Assembly (NCBI GenBank): GCA_903885555.1
Contig: CAISIV010000152.1
Coordinates: 1 to 51,381 of the forward strand
DNA length: 51,381 nt
Source: an uncultured Hyphomicrobiales bacterium
GTDB lineage: Bacteria > Pseudomonadota > Alphaproteobacteria > Rhizobiales > Xanthobacteraceae
Direction: 5' to 3'
A program made the position numbers and the translations under genes. Of this stretch, positions 1-28,400 are shown piece after piece. The first letter of the stretch is position 1; each line of letters opens with the position of its first letter. The notes beneath the pieces are model-generated. The model was given only the letters and a program-made list of their open reading frames with translations, did no database searches and was not told the DNA's origin.

Positions 1-175
1 CCAGCACGTGGTCTGAGTCGTAGCCGGTCAGGGTCGGCAGATCGAAGGCGACCGAGAGGCCGGTCTGGCCCTTGGAGAGATTCTTGCGATAAAGCGCGTT
101 CGAATCCTTGGCGGTCGAGTGACCGGCATAGGTCCGGAACATCCACGGCTTGTCGCGTTTTACGGTGTCGGCCAT
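1..175 (-). CDS. meaA: Ethylmalonyl-CoA mutase MeaA, N-terminal fragment
   Basis: Only the first 58 codons are present; the gene runs off the left edge. The ATG is at 175-173 and the protein begins [20 protein letters not shown], followed by the stretch [20 protein letters not shown]. This is the conserved start of the B12-dependent acyl-CoA mutase family. The short N-terminus fits MeaA, which converts ethylmalonyl-CoA to methylsuccinyl-CoA in the cytosolic ethylmalonyl-CoA pathway of acetate assimilation. The neighbours ccr and mcd encode the steps before and after it, which supports MeaA over methylmalonyl-CoA mutase. The catalytic barrel and cobalamin domain lie outside the window, so the choice between the two mutases rests on context and N-terminal similarity. 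An element shared with ccr lies 15 bp upstream of the start codon. Confidence 0.85.
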
Positions 176-190
176 TGGGACTACCTGTTA

Positions 191-223
191 CGGCAGTGTG
201 ACGTAACCTTTGCTGCAATGCAA
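191..223 (-). promoter_or_regulatory. Upstream element of meaA, shared with ccr
   Basis: Read on the minus strand, this 33-bp block has TTGC-N2-TGCA, then a CA, then TTACGTCACACT, then a CG two bases later. The block before ccr at 2802-2834 aligns to it without a gap at 25 of 33 positions, including all 12 bases of TTACGTCACACT. It ends 15 bp before the meaA start codon. On the plus strand the area also shows CTTTGC-N14-GCAAAG. It is probably a binding site for a regulator of the ethylmalonyl-CoA pathway; the regulator is not in the window. Confidence 0.6.
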
Positions 224-265
224 CATGGCAAAGCTTCCTTAAGACCCAGGTTTTACCGTCCGCTC

Positions 266-1261
266 ATGGACCTCACTCCGCAGCCCCGCCCGCGCTACAG
301 CATCGTCGTGCCCGTTTTCAACGAACAGGCCGTATTGCCGGTGCTGTTGCGCCGCCTCGACCTGATGATGGCCGGCCTCGACGGACCGACCGAGACCATT
401 TTCGTCGACGATGGCAGCAGCGATTGCAGCGCCATCATCCTGCGGGCCAAGGCTCGGGAAGATCCGCGCTACCGCTTTGTCGGCCTGTCGCGCAATTTCG
501 GCCATCAGGCTGCGATCACCGCCGGCATGGCCGCGGCGACCGGCGACGCCATCATCGTCATGGACGCCGACCTGCAGGACCCACCCGAAGTGGTCGGGCA
601 GATGATCGAGAAGTGGCAGGAAGGCTACGAGGTCGTCTATGGCCGCCGCCTGTCGCGCGAAGGCGACAGTGCCTTCAAGCAGGCGACCGCCAGCCTGTTC
701 TACAAATTCCTCGGCCGGCTCTCCTCGGTTGATATTCCGCGCGATGCCGGCGACTTCCGCCTGATCGACCGCAAGGTGCTTGAGGCCTTCCTGGCGATGC
801 CGGAGCAGGACCGCTTCGTGCGCGGCATGTTCGCTTGGCTCGGCTTCCGCCAGACCGAAGTCGCCTTCCATCGCCTGCCGCGGCTGGCGGGCGAAACCAA
901 ATATCCATTGCTGAAGATGCTGCGGCTGGCGTCACACGGCGTCGTCGGATTTTCGGACGCGCCGTTGCGGCTGGCGATCTGGTGCGGCTTTGCGGTGTCG
1001 GGTCTTGCCGCGCTCTATGCGCTATGGGTCGTCGGGCACTGGCTCGCGGGCGACACGAGCCTGGTGGCCGGCTGGGCCTCGACCATCATCATCGTATCGT
1101 TCCTGTCCGGCATGAACATGATCATGACCGGCATCATGGGACTCTACGTCGGTCGTATCCACGCCGAGGTCAAACGCCGCCCGCTCTATGTCGTGTCGGA
1201 AAAAGCCGGCTTCGATCGTGTGGCGCAGCCCCAATCGTCGCGGACGATCGACGCCGCTTAA
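266..1261 (+). CDS. Family 2 glycosyltransferase, DPM1/GtrB-like, with C-terminal membrane anchor
   Basis: The 331-residue protein has a GT-A fold. SIVVPVFNEQ lies near residues 12-21, the nucleotide-sugar motif VDDGSS near 47-52 and the metal-binding DADLQD at 100-105. Two hydrophobic helices occupy roughly residues 235-300, as in GtrB and other polyprenyl-phosphate hexose synthases. It probably transfers a sugar from a nucleotide donor to a polyprenyl phosphate at the inner membrane face. The reading frame is open further upstream, but a start at 119 would overlap meaA and adds sequence unlike the family, so the ATG at 266 (MDLTPQPRP) is preferred. It is convergent with the GT-C-like gene at 1268-2704, a likely user of the lipid-linked sugar. 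The exact sugar cannot be told. Confidence 0.85.
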   Translation: MDLTPQPRPRYSIVVPVFNEQAVLPVLLRRLDLMMAGLDGPTETIFVDDGSSDCSAIILRAKAREDPRYRFVGLSRNFGHQAAITAGMAAATGDAIIVMDADLQDPPEVVGQMIEKWQEGYEVVYGRRLSREGDSAFKQATASLFYKFLGRLSSVDIPRDAGDFRLIDRKVLEAFLAMPEQDRFVRGMFAWLGFRQTEVAFHRLPRLAGETKYPLLKMLRLASHGVVGFSDAPLRLAIWCGFAVSGLAALYALWVVGHWLAGDTSLVAGWASTIIIVSFLSGMNMIMTGIMGLYVGRIHAEVKRRPLYVVSEKAGFDRVAQPQSSRTIDAA

Positions 1262-1267
1262 GGCGCT

Positions 1268-2704
1268 TCAGCGCCGCACGTGCACCACGGCGATATCGTC
1301 GGCATAGACGCGCTTCCACTCCGGCAGACGATCCAGCAAGGCGACCGCGGGCGTCGATGGCGTCAGCAACGTCGCGCCGAACTTGTATTCATCCAGCATC
1401 GCCAGAAAATCCGGCAGATTCTGCAGGTCGAGCGCACGGCTGTGCCGCATAATGAATTTCATGCCGTAGAGTTCGGCGCGGCCATCGATAAAGGCCGGAA
1501 TACCAGCAAAATCGAGATAACCGCCGAAATCATAGGCGTTGAGGATGCGGCCGTTTTTGGCCGTATCGATCGATGTCAGCGCCTGCGCCGGCGTGATGTT
1601 GGCGGCGGGAGAAATGGCGCGCGTCGCTGCAACGCCGGTGATCGCGATCAGCGTCGTGATGGTGGCGGCCGGCAGCCAGGCGTTCAGGCGCGGCATCGTG
1701 CGATCGGCCACGAACGCTGCAAATTGTTCGGCCAGCGGCCGCGCCAGCAGCATCGGCGTCAGCAGGCCGAGCAACTCGGCGTGGCGCGATTGCGACAGGC
1801 TCAGGTGCAAAATGCCGAACACCAGCAGAATGCGCATCGGCGGCAGCTTGACGCCGCGATAAAGCGCAAAGGCGAAGGCGCCGAGCATGATCAGTTCGAA
1901 CGCACCAAGATGCGTGAAATCCTGTGAGCGCCATTCGGTGACGATGGTCAGCACTTCGCCCAGCGCAATCGTGCGCGCCGTCACCAGAATAGCCTCCGGG
2001 CCGTATGGGTTGATGCATGCGGCGGCGATTGCGAGGACGCCGAACAGCAGCCATTGCCGTGCGACGCGAAAGCGTTCATTCGCCGGCGCGTTCCACAAGG
2101 CGTCGCAGGCAATGCCGCCGGCAATCGCGATGCCGAAGGTGAAGCTGCCGTGCAGGTTCGCCCACAGGATCATCAGCGGCAGCATGCGCCATGGCGGCGC
2201 GCTTTGTTCGTCGGCGGAACGAATCAGTGCCGCAACCCAGGCGACGATCAGCGGCAGCGCCAGCACGTGCGGGCGCGCCAGAATATGCGGCGATACCAGA
2301 ACGAAGGCGGCGAGGACCGCGATCAGCGCCGGCGTTGGTTGCCAATGCCGCAACAAAAAATGCGTCAGCAATCCGAAGGCAACGGACGCAGCGGCGGCGG
2401 CGAGCGCGACAACGCCGGTCCAGCCGCCGAGCGACAGCGCTGTCGCGTAGACGACTTGCGACAACCATTCGAACGCGACCCAGTGTTCGCCGCGCAAGGT
2501 CAGCGACAGCGGATCGCCGGTCGGTACAGCGACGTGCGCTACGATCCAGCGGCCCATCGCGATGTGCGAATACGTGTCGGGATCGTTCAGCAGGCGCGGT
2601 CCGAGCAGCATCAGCAGAGCGTAGATTCCGGCCGCCACCAGCCATGGCAAGGCGGCCGTGGAAACGGCGAGACGATGGCTGCGCGCGATGGTCTGGTCGG
2701 ACAT
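1268..2704 (-). CDS. Polytopic membrane protein, GT-C glycosyltransferase-like
   Basis: This 478-residue protein has about ten hydrophobic segments and a soluble C-terminal part after about residue 365. The first periplasmic loop carries NDPDTYSHIAMGRWI at residues 40-54. An acidic Asp-Pro-Asp in that loop is typical of GT-C enzymes, which take sugars from polyprenyl-phosphate donors on the outer membrane face. I do not recognise a named family, so catalytic activity is inferred from topology and this motif. The gene ends 6 bp from the GT2 gene on the other strand. That GT2 resembles enzymes that make polyprenyl-phosphate sugars, which suggests a donor-acceptor pair in envelope glycosylation. 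A wholly different transport or scaffold role remains possible. Confidence 0.6.
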   Translation of the reverse strand: MSDQTIARSHRLAVSTAALPWLVAAGIYALLMLLGPRLLNDPDTYSHIAMGRWIVAHVAVPTGDPLSLTLRGEHWVAFEWLSQVVYATALSLGGWTGVVALAAAAASVAFGLLTHFLLRHWQPTPALIAVLAAFVLVSPHILARPHVLALPLIVAWVAALIRSADEQSAPPWRMLPLMILWANLHGSFTFGIAIAGGIACDALWNAPANERFRVARQWLLFGVLAIAAACINPYGPEAILVTARTIALGEVLTIVTEWRSQDFTHLGAFELIMLGAFAFALYRGVKLPPMRILLVFGILHLSLSQSRHAELLGLLTPMLLARPLAEQFAAFVADRTMPRLNAWLPAATITTLIAITGVAATRAISPAANITPAQALTSIDTAKNGRILNAYDFGGYLDFAGIPAFIDGRAELYGMKFIMRHSRALDLQNLPDFLAMLDEYKFGATLLTPSTPAVALLDRLPEWKRVYADDIAVVHVRR

Positions 2705-2801
2705 GCTGGCCCTGATTGCGAGCCTTCAACCTAGGTCGGGGGCCTTGTTAAACCCTTAAAAAGAAGGGGTTTTGGCCTATTCCACCGGTTTAACGACCTT
2801 A

Positions 2802-2834
2802 TTGCGCTGCAACATAATTTACGTCACACTAACG
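2802..2834 (+). promoter_or_regulatory. Upstream element of ccr, shared with meaA
   Basis: TTGC-N2-TGCA is followed after seven bases by TTACGTCACACT and then by CG. It matches the meaA element at 191-223 (minus strand) with identical internal spacing. It contains the inverted repeat TTGC-N3-GCAA and the -10-like hexamer CATAAT at 2813-2818. It ends 22 bp before the ccr start codon; the strong Shine-Dalgarno AAGGAGG is at 2844-2850. The closeness to the start suggests the site overlaps the promoter core or the first transcribed bases. Confidence 0.6.
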
Positions 2835-2856: not shown

Positions 2857-4140
2857 ATGCCGGCTGTTGCGCAGGTGAGGAGCGTTGCTCCTCATAAGGA
2901 CCTCTATGACATCGGCGAGATTCCGCCGCTTGGTCACGTGCCCGAAAAAATGCACGCTTGGGTTATTCGCCAGGACCGTCATGGGCCACCGGAAAAATCC
3001 ATGCTGCTGGAAGTCGTGCCGACCTGGCCGATCGGCGAGGAAGACGTGCTCGTCTTCGTGATGGCGGCGGGCGTGAACTACAACGGCATCTGGGCCGGCC
3101 TTGGTCAGCCGATCACGCCCTTCAACGTTCACAAGCAGCCGTTTCACATCGCGGGTTCGGACGCGTCCGGAATTGTCTGGGCCGTCGGTTCGAAGGTGAA
3201 GCGCTGGAAGGTTGGCGACGAAGTCATCGTCCATTGTAATCAAGACGACGGCGACGACGAGGACTGCAACGGCGGCGATCCGCTGCTGTCGCCTTCGCAG
3301 CGCATCTGGGGCTACGAGACGCCGGACGGTTCTTTCGCGCAGTTCTGCCGCGTGCAGTCGCGGCAACTGATGCAGAAGCCTGCGCATCTGAGTTGGGAAG
3401 AGTCCGCCTGCTACACACTGACGCTGGCCACCGCCTACCGCATGTTGTTCGGCCATCCGCCGCACACGCTCAAGCCCGGCGACAACGTCTTGGTCTGGGG
3501 CGCCTCCGGCGGTCTCGGCGTGTTCGGTCTGCAACTCGTCGCGGCGTCCGGCGCCAACGCCATCGCGGTCGTCTCCGACGAATCGAAGATGGAATACGTC
3601 TTCAATCTCGGCGCCAAGGGCGCCATCAACCGCAAGGAGTTCAAGTGCTGGGGCCAACTGCCTCAGGTGAATTCCGCCGAATACAACGACTGGAGCAAGG
3701 AAGCCCGGCGCTTCGGCAAGGCCATCTGGGACATTACCGGCAAACGCGACGTCGATATTGTGTTCGAACATCCGGGTGAGGCGACGTTCCCGGTGTCGTC
3801 GATGGTCGTCAAGCGCGGCGGCATGGTGGTGTTCTGCGCCGGCACCACCGGTTTCAACATTACCTTCGACGCGCGTTATGTCTGGATGCGGCAGAAGCGC
3901 ATCCAGGGTTCGCACTTCGCCCATCTCAAGCAGGCGTCGCAGGCGAACCGCTTTGTCATCGAGCGCCGTATCGATCCTTGCCTGTCGAAAACCTTCCCGT
4001 GGATGGAGATCCCCATGGCGCACACCATGATGTGGAAGAACCAGCATCCGCCCGGCAACATGGCGGTGCTGGTCAGCGCATCGCGCCCGGGCCTGAAGAA
4101 CTTCGAGGATACGCTCGAAGCGGTGGGTGCCGAAGCCTAA
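2857..4140 (+). CDS. ccr: Crotonyl-CoA carboxylase/reductase
   Basis: Ccr catalyses NADPH-dependent reductive carboxylation of crotonyl-CoA to (2S)-ethylmalonyl-CoA, the committed step of the ethylmalonyl-CoA pathway. The 427-residue length matches the family. The sequence is a medium-chain dehydrogenase/reductase with an N-terminal GroES-like part (AAGVNYNGIWAGLG, FHIAGSDASGIVWAVGS) and a Rossmann part with VWGASGGLG near residues 213-221. The Ccr-specific stretches PLLSPSQRIWGYETPDGSFA and MWKNQHPPGNMAVLV are present. The ATG at 2857 has an excellent ribosome site, AAGGAGG, seven bases upstream. The 3' end overlaps the convergent YihY-family gene by 4 bp. With meaA and mcd nearby, this organism very probably assimilates C2 units without a glyoxylate shunt or in addition to one. 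Confidence 0.96.
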   Translation: MPAVAQVRSVAPHKDLYDIGEIPPLGHVPEKMHAWVIRQDRHGPPEKSMLLEVVPTWPIGEEDVLVFVMAAGVNYNGIWAGLGQPITPFNVHKQPFHIAGSDASGIVWAVGSKVKRWKVGDEVIVHCNQDDGDDEDCNGGDPLLSPSQRIWGYETPDGSFAQFCRVQSRQLMQKPAHLSWEESACYTLTLATAYRMLFGHPPHTLKPGDNVLVWGASGGLGVFGLQLVAASGANAIAVVSDESKMEYVFNLGAKGAINRKEFKCWGQLPQVNSAEYNDWSKEARRFGKAIWDITGKRDVDIVFEHPGEATFPVSSMVVKRGGMVVFCAGTTGFNITFDARYVWMRQKRIQGSHFAHLKQASQANRFVIERRIDPCLSKTFPWMEIPMAHTMMWKNQHPPGNMAVLVSASRPGLKNFEDTLEAVGAEA

Positions 4141-7161: not shown

Positions 7162-7319
7162 GAAGCGCATGCGGCCGGTTCGATGGCGCCGGTGAAGGGG
7201 CGATAGCGCAAAGGAGTACCGGGGTAGCAAAGCGGGAAATGGTTAATTTTGTGGGAATTTAACGTCGTACGGGCGTAAATCTGACGAAAAATCAGGCAAT
7301 TACAGTCGGGTTTGCTTTT

Positions 7320-7341
7320 GTGCACTGCACGCGTAATGTCA
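7320..7341 (+). promoter_or_regulatory. Degenerate version of the meaA/ccr element before mcd
   Basis: GTGCACTGCA at 7320-7329 matches TTGC-N2-TGCA at seven of eight fixed bases, and TAATGTCA at 7334-7341 matches TTACGTCA at six of eight. The spacing between the two halves is 4 bp instead of 7 bp, so this is much weaker than the meaA and ccr copies. It lies about 58 bp before the mcd start and may be chance. Confidence 0.2.
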
Positions 7342-7398: not shown

Positions 7399-9072
7399 AT
7401 GCCGATCGCTGCTTCCCGCGCCTCCGAACCCGAACTGGTCGAACTTGCCCGTGAAGCCACCACGGCGCTGGATGCGCTGCTGGCCGATGCGGTCGCCAAG
7501 GTCCGCGAGAAGGTGGTGGTCGAAGGCCATCCCGTCAGCAAGCTGTTCGACCGCGAGCAGCGCGCCACGCACGGGTTGGCCTGGCTCGCCACTTACGTCG
7601 AATCGGTGCGCCAGCTCACGGCCTATACGCAGCGCATGATCGCTGACGGCACCTTCGGCGAAGTCGAAGAACACATCGTCCGCATCGGCCTTGGCGAATA
7701 TATCTCGCAGATCATTGGCGGCATTCCGATGAGCCAGGGCGAAGTCGTGCGCCCGAGCGATCTTGGCCTGTCGATGGCGCAAGTCGCTTCGCGCATCAAC
7801 CGTGCCTGCGAGAGCCTGATGGCGAGCGGCAATACGGTCGAGCGCCGCGCCCGTCTGGTCGAACTGATCCGCCAGGGTTTTCATGCGACCGTCGGCATCG
7901 CCGGTCTCGACGAGACGCTGGAATCGATCCGCGAAGAGATGCGCAAGTTTGCCGACGCCGAGGTGATCGATCGCGCGCAGGGCTGGCACCGCACCAACAG
8001 CTACATTCCGATGGAAGTCATCGCGCAGATGTCCGAGCTCGGCGTATTCGGCCTGACCATTCCGGAAGAATTCGGCGGCATGGGGCTCGGCAAAGAGTCG
8101 ATGTGCGTCGTCTCCGAAGAACTATCGCGCGGCTATATCGGCGTCGGCTCGCTCGGCACCCGCTCGGAAATCGCGGCCGAACTCATTCTCGGCGGCGGTA
8201 CACCGGAGCAGAAGGCAAAATGGCTGCCGAAGCTCGCGTCCGGCGAAGTGCTGCCGACCGCTGTGTTTACAGAGCCAAACACCGGTTCCGATCTGGCATC
8301 TCTGAAGACCCGCGCCGTGCGCGAAGGCGACGTCTACAAAGTCTACGGCAACAAGACCTGGATCACGCATCCGGTGCGCGCCGATCTGATGACGCTGCTG
8401 GTCCGCACCAATCCCAAGGAGCCGGGCCATTGCGGCCTGTCGATGCTGCTGGCCGAAAAGCCGCGCGGCACCGACGCCAATCCATTCCCCGCCAAGGGCA
8501 TGAGCGGCACCGAGATCGAAGTGCTCGGCTACCGCGGCATGAAGGAATACGAGATCGCCTTCGACGGCTTCGAAGTGAAAGCCGAAAACCTGCTCGGTGG
8601 CGTCGAGGGGCTCGGCTTCAAGCAGTTGATGCAGACCTTCGAGTCGGCCCGCATCCAGACAGCTGCCAGAGCGATTGGCGTGGCGCAGTCGGCCATGGAG
8701 CGCGCGATCGAATACGGCCAGAACCGCGTGCAGTTCAGCCGGCCGATCATCGAATTCCCGCGCGTCTCCGACAAGATCGCGATGATGGCGGTCGAAATCA
8801 TGATTGCCCGCCAGCTTACCTATCACGCCGCGCGTGAGAAAGATTCCGGCCGGCGCTGCGATCTGGAAGCCGGTATGGCGAAGCTGCTCGGCGCTCGCGT
8901 CGCCTGGGCCAATGCCGACAACGCGCTGCAGATCCACGGCGGCAACGGTTTTGCGCTGGAGTTCCCGGTGTCGCGCATCCTCTGCGACGCACGCATTCTC
9001 AACATTTTCGAGGGTGCGGCCGAAATCCAGGCTCAGGTCATCGCCCGCCGCCTGCTCGATGGTACGAACTAG
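7399..9072 (+). CDS. mcd: (2S)-methylsuccinyl-CoA dehydrogenase
   Basis: Mcd is an FAD enzyme that oxidises methylsuccinyl-CoA to mesaconyl-CoA, the step after MeaA. The 557-residue protein is longer than standard acyl-CoA dehydrogenases because of an N-terminal extension of about 160 residues (VSKLFDREQRATHGLAWLAT), a hallmark of Mcd. The dehydrogenase core follows: EFGGMGLGKESMCVVSEELS, the FAD-contacting TEPNTGSDLASLKTRA, and the C-terminal QIHGGNGFALEFPVSRILCD. FEGAAEIQ at 537-544 carries the usual acyl-CoA dehydrogenase glutamate (E538). The ATG at 7399 follows AGAGGA at 7390-7394; an ATG at 7336 upstream would add sequence unlike the family. Clustering with ccr and meaA makes the assignment strong. 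Confidence 0.93.
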   Translation: MPIAASRASEPELVELAREATTALDALLADAVAKVREKVVVEGHPVSKLFDREQRATHGLAWLATYVESVRQLTAYTQRMIADGTFGEVEEHIVRIGLGEYISQIIGGIPMSQGEVVRPSDLGLSMAQVASRINRACESLMASGNTVERRARLVELIRQGFHATVGIAGLDETLESIREEMRKFADAEVIDRAQGWHRTNSYIPMEVIAQMSELGVFGLTIPEEFGGMGLGKESMCVVSEELSRGYIGVGSLGTRSEIAAELILGGGTPEQKAKWLPKLASGEVLPTAVFTEPNTGSDLASLKTRAVREGDVYKVYGNKTWITHPVRADLMTLLVRTNPKEPGHCGLSMLLAEKPRGTDANPFPAKGMSGTEIEVLGYRGMKEYEIAFDGFEVKAENLLGGVEGLGFKQLMQTFESARIQTAARAIGVAQSAMERAIEYGQNRVQFSRPIIEFPRVSDKIAMMAVEIMIARQLTYHAAREKDSGRRCDLEAGMAKLLGARVAWANADNALQIHGGNGFALEFPVSRILCDARILNIFEGAAEIQAQVIARRLLDGTN

Positions 9073-25479: not shown

Positions 25480-28400
25480 CTAGCGGGTCTGCAGCGAACC
25501 GAGCGACAGCGGCCCGACCTGACGTGGCTTGGGCGCCGGCGCGCTGGTGACGCCGTCCCAGCCGCCGGCCGGTTCGGGCACCGAGGTGGCTTCCGACGGC
25601 TGCGGCTCGATGGCGAAGTTCTGCACGGCGCGCTGGGCGGCCGCGAGGGTGTCATCATCCATCTGGGTGGCGATTTCGTCGCGCTTCTTGGCGGATTCCT
25701 TGTCGCCCTGCGCTGCCGCCAGCGCGAACCATTGATAGGACTCGGCCGGGTTCTTTTCGGTGCCGAGGCCGCGGGCGCAGAGAACGCCGAGATTGTACTG
25801 GCTGTCAGCGATGCCGCGCTGCGCCGCCTTGCGGAACCACTGTGCGGCGTTGACGTAGTCCGGCTTGCCGTCGGCGCCTTCGGCGTAGAGCACGGCGAGG
25901 TTATGCATCGCCTTGCCGTTCCCTTTGCCGGCGGCGGCGAGATAGAGCCTGCGGGCCTGAACCATGTCCTTTTTCACGCCCTGCCCTTTTTCCAGCAGGC
26001 TGGCGTAACGGAACTGGGCCGGGACGAGGCCCTTGCTTGCGGCGCGCTCGTACCAGCGGGCGGCTTCTTCCATGCTGACCGGAACGCCACGGCCTTCGGC
26101 GAAGCGGATCGCGACTTCGTAAGCCGCGGCGGCATCGCCGGCGATGGCGGCGCTGCGCAACCGGTTGCCGCCGATCGCGGCCGGCAGGCGCTCGGCCGTG
26201 GGCTGGCTGGGCAATACGGGCGCTGCAGTCTGAGGCCGGGTGAGGTTCGGCGTCGGGATCGAGCCGGTGACGTCGGTGGTCGATGCACTCGGCGTCACGG
26301 GCCGCGAATTTGCGGCTGGTGAATTAATGGCGGCCGGATTGAGCAGCGACGGCATGGTCGGCGATGCGATTCCGTAGTCGAGCGGAATGGAGGACTGCTT
26401 CGGCGTCGCCAGCGGGCTGGTGACATTCCTGACCGGCGCGGCAGGCTTGACCGTCGAGGCCGTCGTGATGGTGTCGTCGGCGTTGCGCGCGGTCTTGGCG
26501 TCGTCGGATTTGCCGAATTCGAAAATGGAGCCGGCAATCTGGATCGAGCCGACCACGACGGCAACGATGCTGGCGGCAATGAACAGCGATTTGACCCGCT
26601 TCATCATCTTGCTGCGCAGCGATGGTGCGTCGGGATCTTCCAGTTCGAGAACGTCGGGCGCCTGCGGCGGTGGCGGCGGCGCGCGATCGGCGGTGTTCTG
26701 CACCGCGGCATTGGCGGCGCGGCGGGCGGCGGCGATGAAGCCGGATTTGCTGCCGGTGGCAGCGGCATTCGCGCCGGAGCTGCCGAGCGCGGCTTCGGAC
26801 ATGGCAATGCGCGCCCCGGGATTGGCGCGGAACTTCGGCGGACCGGAGCCGGGCTCAAGCGGTTGATCGGGCGGCAGATCGGGATTGATCGGCAGGTTGT
26901 GGGCCTGCGGCAAGCGCTTCTGAACGGGTTCGGCTGCCGGCGGTTGTGGCTGCGGCGCAGCCTGACGCGGGGCAGGTTGCGCTTGCGGCTCGATGTACTG
27001 TTGCGGAGCGGGCGTAGGGGAAGGCGGCGGCGCCTGTGGCGGCCGGGCGGCGGGCTGGGGATCGATCACGGCACGGGCCGCGACCTTGCCGATCGGCTGG
27101 CGTGCCTCGTTGAACTCTTCGACGCTGACCGGGCGCTTGCGGCTTTCCGGCATGGATGGTGCGCGATGTTCGGCGGGTGCGTGGACCTGCGCAGCCGCAG
27201 GGGCCGTGCGCATGCCGCTTTCGAGCATCGTCAGCCGGTCGACCAGCGTGCCCAGCGTGCCGTTGACCTGCTGCAACGCATCCTGCGTGCGCGCCATGTC
27301 GTGCTTAAGTTCGTCAACCACCGGCGAAGCATCGGCGCGAATGCCGCCGCTGTTCTTGTTGGAGCGCATCTCTTCGATGTGCACCAGGAGATCGGCGAGG
27401 CCGCGCTCAACCGCTTCGAGATGGCCGAGCCGTGAATCCGAGGCGTCGAGGCGCTGCACCAGCGCAACGATCTGATCTTCTAGATGGCTCGAGGCAATGC
27501 TGTCGCCGCGCGACTGCTGGATCAGCTCGATCTTGTCCGAGAGCGACTGCACCAGCGATTCCAGCATCGGCGGCACATTGCCGCCGCGCTCGGACCGTTC
27601 CGCCAATGCGTCGGCCAGCGCCGAAATGCGGTGTTCGAGATTGTTGAGCGCATCGCTGCCGGTGTTGGATGCGGCGAGATGTTCGACGCGATCGGCGAGT
27701 TGTTCGACGTGCAGCGCCAGGCCCGTCACGGCGTCGGTCGATGCCACATGGCTCGCCATATCGCGCAGCGTGGTGATGGCGTGTTCGAGCTGATGCAGCG
27801 TCTCGGGGTTCTTGTCGGCGACGATCAGATCGATCTTGTGCGCCAGCCCTGCGACCGCGTCGTTGAAGCCGACCAGGTTTTCCGCCGGGGTGAGGCCGCG
27901 CAGCGCGTCGCGCACTTCGGCGAGGCCGTGTTCGACCCCGTTCAGCGCGCCGGCATCGATGCCGGCCTGTTTGCCTTCGGCGATGCGGTGGGTGAGGCCC
28001 TGAATCTGTTGCTCGATGGTGTCGATCGCCTGGCGCGGCATTGCATCGGTCAGCGCGCGGGCGATGTCGCCGAGTTCGGCGCGCAGCGCATTGATCGCTT
28101 CCTCGACGCCCGGCTTGCGCAGGGTTTCGATCTGATTGGTGATGGTGCGCAGCTGATCTTCCAGGCCCGACAGGTCCTGGGTCGGCATCGGCATGAACAC
28201 CGGCGCCGGCTGCGGCATAGCCGCCTGTTGACGTTGCGGCGCGGGCGTGGCGGCCAAAGCGGGCTGGCCATTCAGCGCACGCTGGCGCGCTGCGATTTCG
28301 GCAACGGCGATATCCAGTGCCGGCGGCATGCGCACGGCGGGCACGTTCGGCAAAGCCTGCTGGAAACCTTGCTGTGGCATCATCTGCGGATGCATCGCAG

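Follow-up and report, generated by a model that had tools for sequence, protein, structure and literature searches.

A PhaR-type palindrome upstream of the ethylmalonyl-CoA pathway genes ccr, meaA and mcd in an uncultured Xanthobacteraceae bacterium, with a predicted role in linking carbon storage to acetyl-CoA assimilation

In a stretch of 51,381 nucleotides from an uncultured Hyphomicrobiales bacterium of the family Xanthobacteraceae (contig CAISIV010000152.1 of assembly GCA_903885555.1; this whole stretch is called the window below), a palindrome with a TGC-N3-GCA core lies upstream of each of three genes, ccr (crotonyl-CoA carboxylase/reductase), meaA (ethylmalonyl-CoA mutase) and mcd ((2S)-methylsuccinyl-CoA dehydrogenase), which stand for three consecutive steps of the ethylmalonyl-CoA pathway. 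The motif is, as a sequence, that of PhaR (AniA), a regulator that binds polyhydroxybutyrate (PHB). PhaR probably represses the three genes by occupying their promoters until it is titrated by PHB granules; both its binding and the sign of the regulation are predictions from sequence. Many alphaproteobacteria use the ethylmalonyl-CoA pathway in place of the glyoxylate cycle, and to our knowledge only a few regulators have been described as acting directly on its core genes.

The block shared by the meaA and ccr upstream regions

An earlier note, made from the letters of this DNA, had described a single 33-bp site common to the meaA and ccr upstream regions and judged it unlikely to have arisen by chance. 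The gapless agreement at 25 of 33 positions between 223-191 (minus strand) and 2802-2834 (plus strand), the exact 12-mer common to both blocks and the distances of 15 and 22 bp from block to ATG were recomputed and are correct. The pattern TTGCNNTGCA-N7-TTACGTCACACT was found at exactly two places in the window, even with three mismatches allowed and with the identical 12-mer in both, and none of 100 dinucleotide shuffles contained two matches. Across the whole genome (G000; 4.27 Mb in 320 contigs, rated 95% complete), the 26-base form, which ends in TTACGTCAC, matches exactly at two places; the match that follows carries two mismatches and lies inside an open reading frame. On account of the two window matches, the shuffles and the two exact genome matches, the shared block is real and not a product of chance. 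Its description as one site was given up: relatives keep the palindrome and a CAxACT element without conserving the 12-mer as such, the place of which reads TTGCGTCAGACT, TTGCGGCAGACT and similar, and a palindromic operator joined to a promoter is the better reading of the block.

Match to the PhaR operator

The left half of the block is the core of the palindrome, which matches the footprinted PhaR/AniA operator and is conserved in relatives roughly as ATGTTGCANTGCAACAT. In Bradyrhizobium diazoefficiens, PhaR footprints gave the consensus TGCRNYGCASMA, one site overlaps a -35 box, and PHB nearly abolished PhaR binding (PMC6201568). The 12-mer of the meaA site (TGCATTGCAGCA) fits this consensus exactly, as does the mcd site in its minus-strand reading (TGCAGTGCACAA), and the ccr site (TGCGCTGCAACA) is one position off. 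In Sinorhizobium meliloti, the PhaR motif was given as WNWD2NYGCRNYGCRNH2WNW, shifts were lost with altered palindromes, and the data agree with a titration of PhaR by PHB granules (PMC12542648).

A scan of the window for TGCRNYGCAVHA returned the two known sites (each on both strands), 7318-7329 upstream of mcd, and 27269-27280 on the minus strand; about 1.9 matches are expected by chance.

The genome holds a single PhaR gene, detected as its only PF07879 match (E 8.5e-30) and assigned to the TIGR01848 equivalog (146.5 bits, cut-off 109.45); it is located on contig C10 and is divergent from the adjacent phaA.

Conservation in related genomes

Conservation was assessed on the 80 closest of at least 596 loci encoding Ccr relatives, with 79 usable upstream regions for ccr and 61 for meaA. 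The core TGCRNYGCA is present in 45 of the 79 ccr and 30 of the 61 meaA upstream regions; among control windows taken from these loci, 103 of 4251 contain it. For mcd, 27 of 34 loci have it upstream, compared with 35 of 1350 equal-sized control windows from the mcd loci (35 loci gave a match, one of which was left out because its alignment began late).

The composite TTGCRNYGCANNA-N10-CANACT occurs in 35 of 43 genomes of the genus, with 61 matches against one for the reversed pattern; the pattern was derived from relatives in the same group, which makes its presence partly circular, its placement at ccr and meaA less so. The 30 loci of the genus that were fetched contain 45 composites, of which 24 precede ccr and 19 precede meaA; the remaining two are a double palindrome before gltA in the present genome and one site in genome G082.

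Promoter reading of the right half

The shared element is read as a sigma-70-type promoter with a built-in PhaR operator. In close relatives, CAxACT stands exactly 17 bp downstream of TTGCNN. An unselected count (sites common to ccr and meaA being counted once from each gene) gave CANANT at 17 bp from TTGCNN, on the side facing the gene, in 29 of 58 palindromes, 25 of them with CANACT. It stood on the far side in 10 of 58. Eight of these are accounted for by loci L016, L019, L020 and L021, which enter the count from both genes, and the other two are sites that belong to the partner gene. Because this polarity towards the gene is what a -10 hexamer would show, CAxACT is taken as a putative -10 and TTGCNN as a putative -35.

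In the same four loci, ccr and meaA diverge from one common palindrome, which is flanked to the left and right by CAxACT at the same distance; ccr and meaA of the window are separated by two other genes, and each has its own palindrome copy.

The 27 sites used for the sequence logo and for the profiles R1 and R2 (below) were picked by eye for a downstream CAxACT-like element, so that CAxACT appears invariant in the logo partly by choice, and the unselected count is the one to be used. Those left out for want of CAxACT include L045, L092 and L033 for ccr and L076, L075 and L041 for meaA, among others; two further sites, L021 ccr and L020 meaA, were removed as identical duplicates.

The motif elsewhere in the genome

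A scan of the genome with profile R1, which was built from the ccr and meaA sites of relatives only, placed the two window sites first (E 1.2e-5 and 1.8e-5). The third match is a site upstream of bdhA, encoding 3-hydroxybutyrate dehydrogenase (E 1.8e-4). With the palindrome-only profile R2, weak matches were obtained in the region between two phasin genes (E 1.3 to 6.8) and in front of pckA (E 9.4), and several one-mismatch palindromes were seen inside coding frames.

PHB genes carry the palindrome in this genome and in its relatives. The gap between phaA and phaB (the latter by TIGR01829), beside phaR on contig C10 (L278:1445-1474), contains two PhaR-type palindromes. Another phasin gene of this genome (contig C293) has a pair of palindromes around a TTGACT box upstream. 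Two of its four phasin genes have a palindrome and two lack one; the phasin scan caught only one of the four, the double site on C293 falling just outside the scan window. Over 33 phasin loci (the four of this genome plus the best match of each of 29 other genomes of the family, out of 61 genomes searched), the core was found upstream in 28, often in two copies with TTGAC between them, compared with 11 of 256 control windows.

Of 30 genomes of the genus, drawn from the 39 with a match and including the present one, 26 have the core upstream of gltA (citrate synthase), against 7 of 264 control windows. The gltA of this genome (contig C130; TIGR01798) is preceded by tandem palindromes (about 190-170 bp before the domain start in locus L274, and at L244:1501-1529), and S. 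meliloti gltA is a predicted direct PhaR target (PMC12542648). The composite match at C130:6993, the third in this genome, was rejected as a composite promoter: it consists of two adjacent palindromes, the second of which supplies the CACACT.

The proposal that the element is shared by ethylmalonyl-CoA genes fared unevenly. It was borne out by the presence of the palindrome at the same genes in relatives and also at mcd; its specificity was not, the palindrome being found at PHB genes and gltA as well and missing at mch.

Imperfect palindromes were seen upstream of pckA (C63:35431, L118); in B. diazoefficiens, the pckA promoter gave some shift with PhaR (PMC6201568). Near-perfect palindromes stand before small frames without a family match at C207:8370-8388 (L103) and C262:11775-11793 (L105), and may possibly mark further PhaR targets.

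Proposed regulation, its sign and the alternatives

PhaR would sit on the TGC-N3-GCA palindrome, where this overlaps the -35 (ccr, meaA) or abuts the -10 (mcd), and when bound would keep RNA polymerase off three consecutive steps of the pathway. As PHB granules form, PhaR would be drawn onto the polymer, and ccr, meaA and mcd would be released, together with the phasin genes, bdhA and probably gltA; the pathway is thus probably switched on as the carbon store fills. We lean, by a narrow margin of belief, towards a wider proposal for Pseudolabrys-like bacteria and many other Hyphomicrobiales, in which the PHB granule would serve as the sensor for the entire acetyl-CoA branch point: PhaR would jointly control gltA, at the entry to the TCA cycle, ccr/meaA/mcd and PHB turnover (phasins, bdhA, phaB), the store would fill first and assimilation open after, and in some species a single palindrome would contain the -35 box of ccr as well as that of the divergent meaA. 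If true, PhaR control of ccr, meaA and mcd would offer a simple account of how acetyl-CoA is split between storage and growth, and would bear on the engineering of acetate and methanol users.

Several observations weigh against these readings. CACACT is a weak -10, and a consensus promoter scan preferred TTAACG-17-CATAAT at 2790-2818 for ccr and did not list the proposed TTGCNN-17-CANANT promoters of meaA and ccr, the hexamers of which are weak. In other genera, with the arm of the palindrome excluded, a TANNNT -10 was found just upstream of the palindrome in only 4 of 48 cases, against 4.8% at random, and 7 on the mirror side. The relatives are not independent samples. The composite was not found in 8 of the 43 genomes of the genus, some of which are incomplete, and the palindrome is absent at ccr in all eight Methylosinus/Methylocystis and both Bradyrhizobium sampled and in some others, and present there in only 4 of 13 Methylobacteriaceae sampled. 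The next pathway gene, mch, has no palindrome within about 1.2 kb upstream in the present genome. Some profile matches in this genome lie in coding frames or have no assigned identity. In B. diazoefficiens, PhaR apparently also activates some genes (PMC6201568).

TTAACG-17-CATAAT was set aside as the ccr promoter: in 14 close relatives, TTAACG is kept in one and CATAAT in none, with CATAAA or TATAAA in the place of CATAAT in four. An excess of palindromes just downstream of a TANNNT -10 in other genera (16 of 49, against 6.8%) was withdrawn, such hexamers being made by the AT-rich arm of the palindrome itself. As the test with the arm excluded failed, repression and the joint control of acetyl-CoA use were each rated slightly less probable than before, and activation slightly more.

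Activation is the strongest of the alternatives, although an improbable one. PhaR would bind and activate ccr, meaA and mcd, and the pathway would run at low PHB; in B. diazoefficiens, some genes with PhaR-like sites, such as pckA, pdhA and phbB2, fall in the phaR mutant (PMC6201568). Repression is favoured because the sites sit inside the proposed core promoters (over the -35 or against the -10), the usual place of repressors, where a protein more likely blocks than activates; in S. meliloti, moreover, the motif is enriched in the repressed module 1, and no more than seven activated genes carry it (PMC12542648).

It is very unlikely that a different dimeric regulator whose site resembles TGC-N3-GCA, such as a CcrR-like TetR protein, acts here and that the likeness to PhaR sites is convergent. 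For a pathway gene of Methylobacterium extorquens, CcrR has been cited as an activator of the TetR family (PMC4207312), whereas the present motif matches footprinted PhaR sites, the genome encodes one PhaR, and the profiles derived from ccr and meaA sites also retrieve the bdhA site and, weakly, phasin sites. Slightly less credit still is given to a shared promoter sequence with no regulator: CAxACT at 17 bp from TTGCNN would account for the fixed distance, but the inverted repeat is kept beyond TTGC, and in other genera the palindrome persists without a TTGCNN/CAxACT promoter.

A regulator of the ScfR family (RamB/PccR type), which the earlier note had brought to mind on account of CTTTGC-N14-GCAAAG on the plus strand at the meaA copy, can practically be dismissed: regulators of this kind act on related pathways in Paracoccus and Rhodobacter (PMC10370305) and the repeat is indeed there, but it occurs once in the window, hence neither at ccr nor at mcd, and has at least three mismatches in each of the 61 meaA upstream regions of relatives. 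A search for PF09856 proteins (E up to 0.001) gave none in this genome, rated 95% complete, and a match in 2 of 14 control genomes.

Comparison with known systems

With the PhaR operators of B. diazoefficiens phasin promoters (PMC6201568), the window sites share the core and the placement at or beside the -35, besides the exact fit of the meaA and mcd sites to the consensus. The targets named there are phasins, depolymerases, cyo, exo and carbon genes; the main text of that paper contains neither 'crotonyl' nor 'ccr', and the two Bradyrhizobium ccr upstream regions lack the site. The PhaR (AniA) regulon of S. meliloti has the same motif, a regulator titrated by PHB, and phasins and gltA as targets (PMC12542648); the main text of that report is without 'ethylmalonyl' or 'crotonyl', whereas here the motif reaches ccr, meaA and mcd.

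RamB and PccR of Paracoccus and Rhodobacter (PMC10370305) likewise exert transcriptional control over the assimilation of acetyl-CoA or propionyl-CoA; they belong to another protein family than PhaR, one not detected in the present genome. CcrR of M. extorquens (cited in PMC4207312) regulates a gene of the same pathway, but as a TetR-family activator, and the Methylorubrum record (L052) shows no palindrome at ccr. A study of phaR in M. extorquens treats the partitioning of acetyl-CoA, and 'ccr' is absent from the portion of its text consulted (PMC6520949).

In the open-licence text of PubMed Central, no paper was found that links PhaR to ccr, meaA or mcd, and a prior report in the subscription literature is possible. 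PhaR operators as such are already known; ccr, meaA and mcd as predicted targets appear undescribed in the open-licence literature searched.

Genes and features of the window

The coordinates are collected in Table 1.

Table 1. Positions of the genes, palindromes and proposed promoter elements in the window
Feature	Position	Strand	Remarks
meaA (ethylmalonyl-CoA mutase)	1..175	-	N-terminal 58 codons, rest beyond the window; full-length relative in locus L018
Proposed meaA promoter	195..223	-	-35 TTGCAT (223-218), 17-bp spacer, -10 CACACT (200-195); palindrome overlaps -35
CTTTGC-N14-GCAAAG inverted repeat	208..233	+	Probably incidental
PhaR-type palindrome GTTGCATTGCAGCAA, upstream of meaA	210..224	-	Core TGCATTGCA (TGC-N3-GCA)
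PhaR-type palindrome ATTGCGCTGCAACAT, upstream of ccr	2801..2815	+	Core TGCGCTGCA (TGC-N3-GCA)
Proposed ccr promoter	2802..2830	+	-35 TTGCGC (2802-2807), 17-bp spacer, -10 CACACT (2825-2830)
ccr (crotonyl-CoA carboxylase/reductase)	2857..4140	+	TIGR01751, 610 bits, cut-off 378.55
PhaR-type palindrome TTGTGCACTGCACGCG, upstream of mcd	7318..7333	+	Core TGCACTGCA at 7321-7329; from window scan
-10-like TAATGT after mcd palindrome	7334-7339	+	Site between possible TTGCTT and TAATGT
mcd ((2S)-methylsuccinyl-CoA dehydrogenase)	7399..9072	+	557 aa; acyl-CoA dehydrogenase with long N-terminal extension

The identities of ccr and meaA given in the earlier note were upheld, the former by TIGR01751 and the mutase class of the latter by its full-length relative in L018. 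This relative falls in the methylmalonyl-CoA mutase class with 547.6 bits, below the equivalog cut-off of 876, a sub-cut-off score that fits a meaA identity. We take meaA to be the ethylmalonyl-CoA mutase gene, so that the 'meaA' and 'ecm' of the earlier note would be one gene.

A third gene of the pathway, overlooked in that note, is present in the window. The product of 7399-9072 aligns nearly end to end with 6es9 (730.9 bits, query 11-554 of 557) and scores 252.7 bits against 8ciw, which is named (2S)-methylsuccinyl-CoA dehydrogenase; the gene is called mcd because 6es9 is the methylsuccinyl-CoA dehydrogenase of Paracoccus. For mch (locus L211), PF19315 proved too broad as a marker, and the gene was named instead by its likeness to 8hgn, 'beta-methylmalyl-CoA dehydratase' (529 bits).

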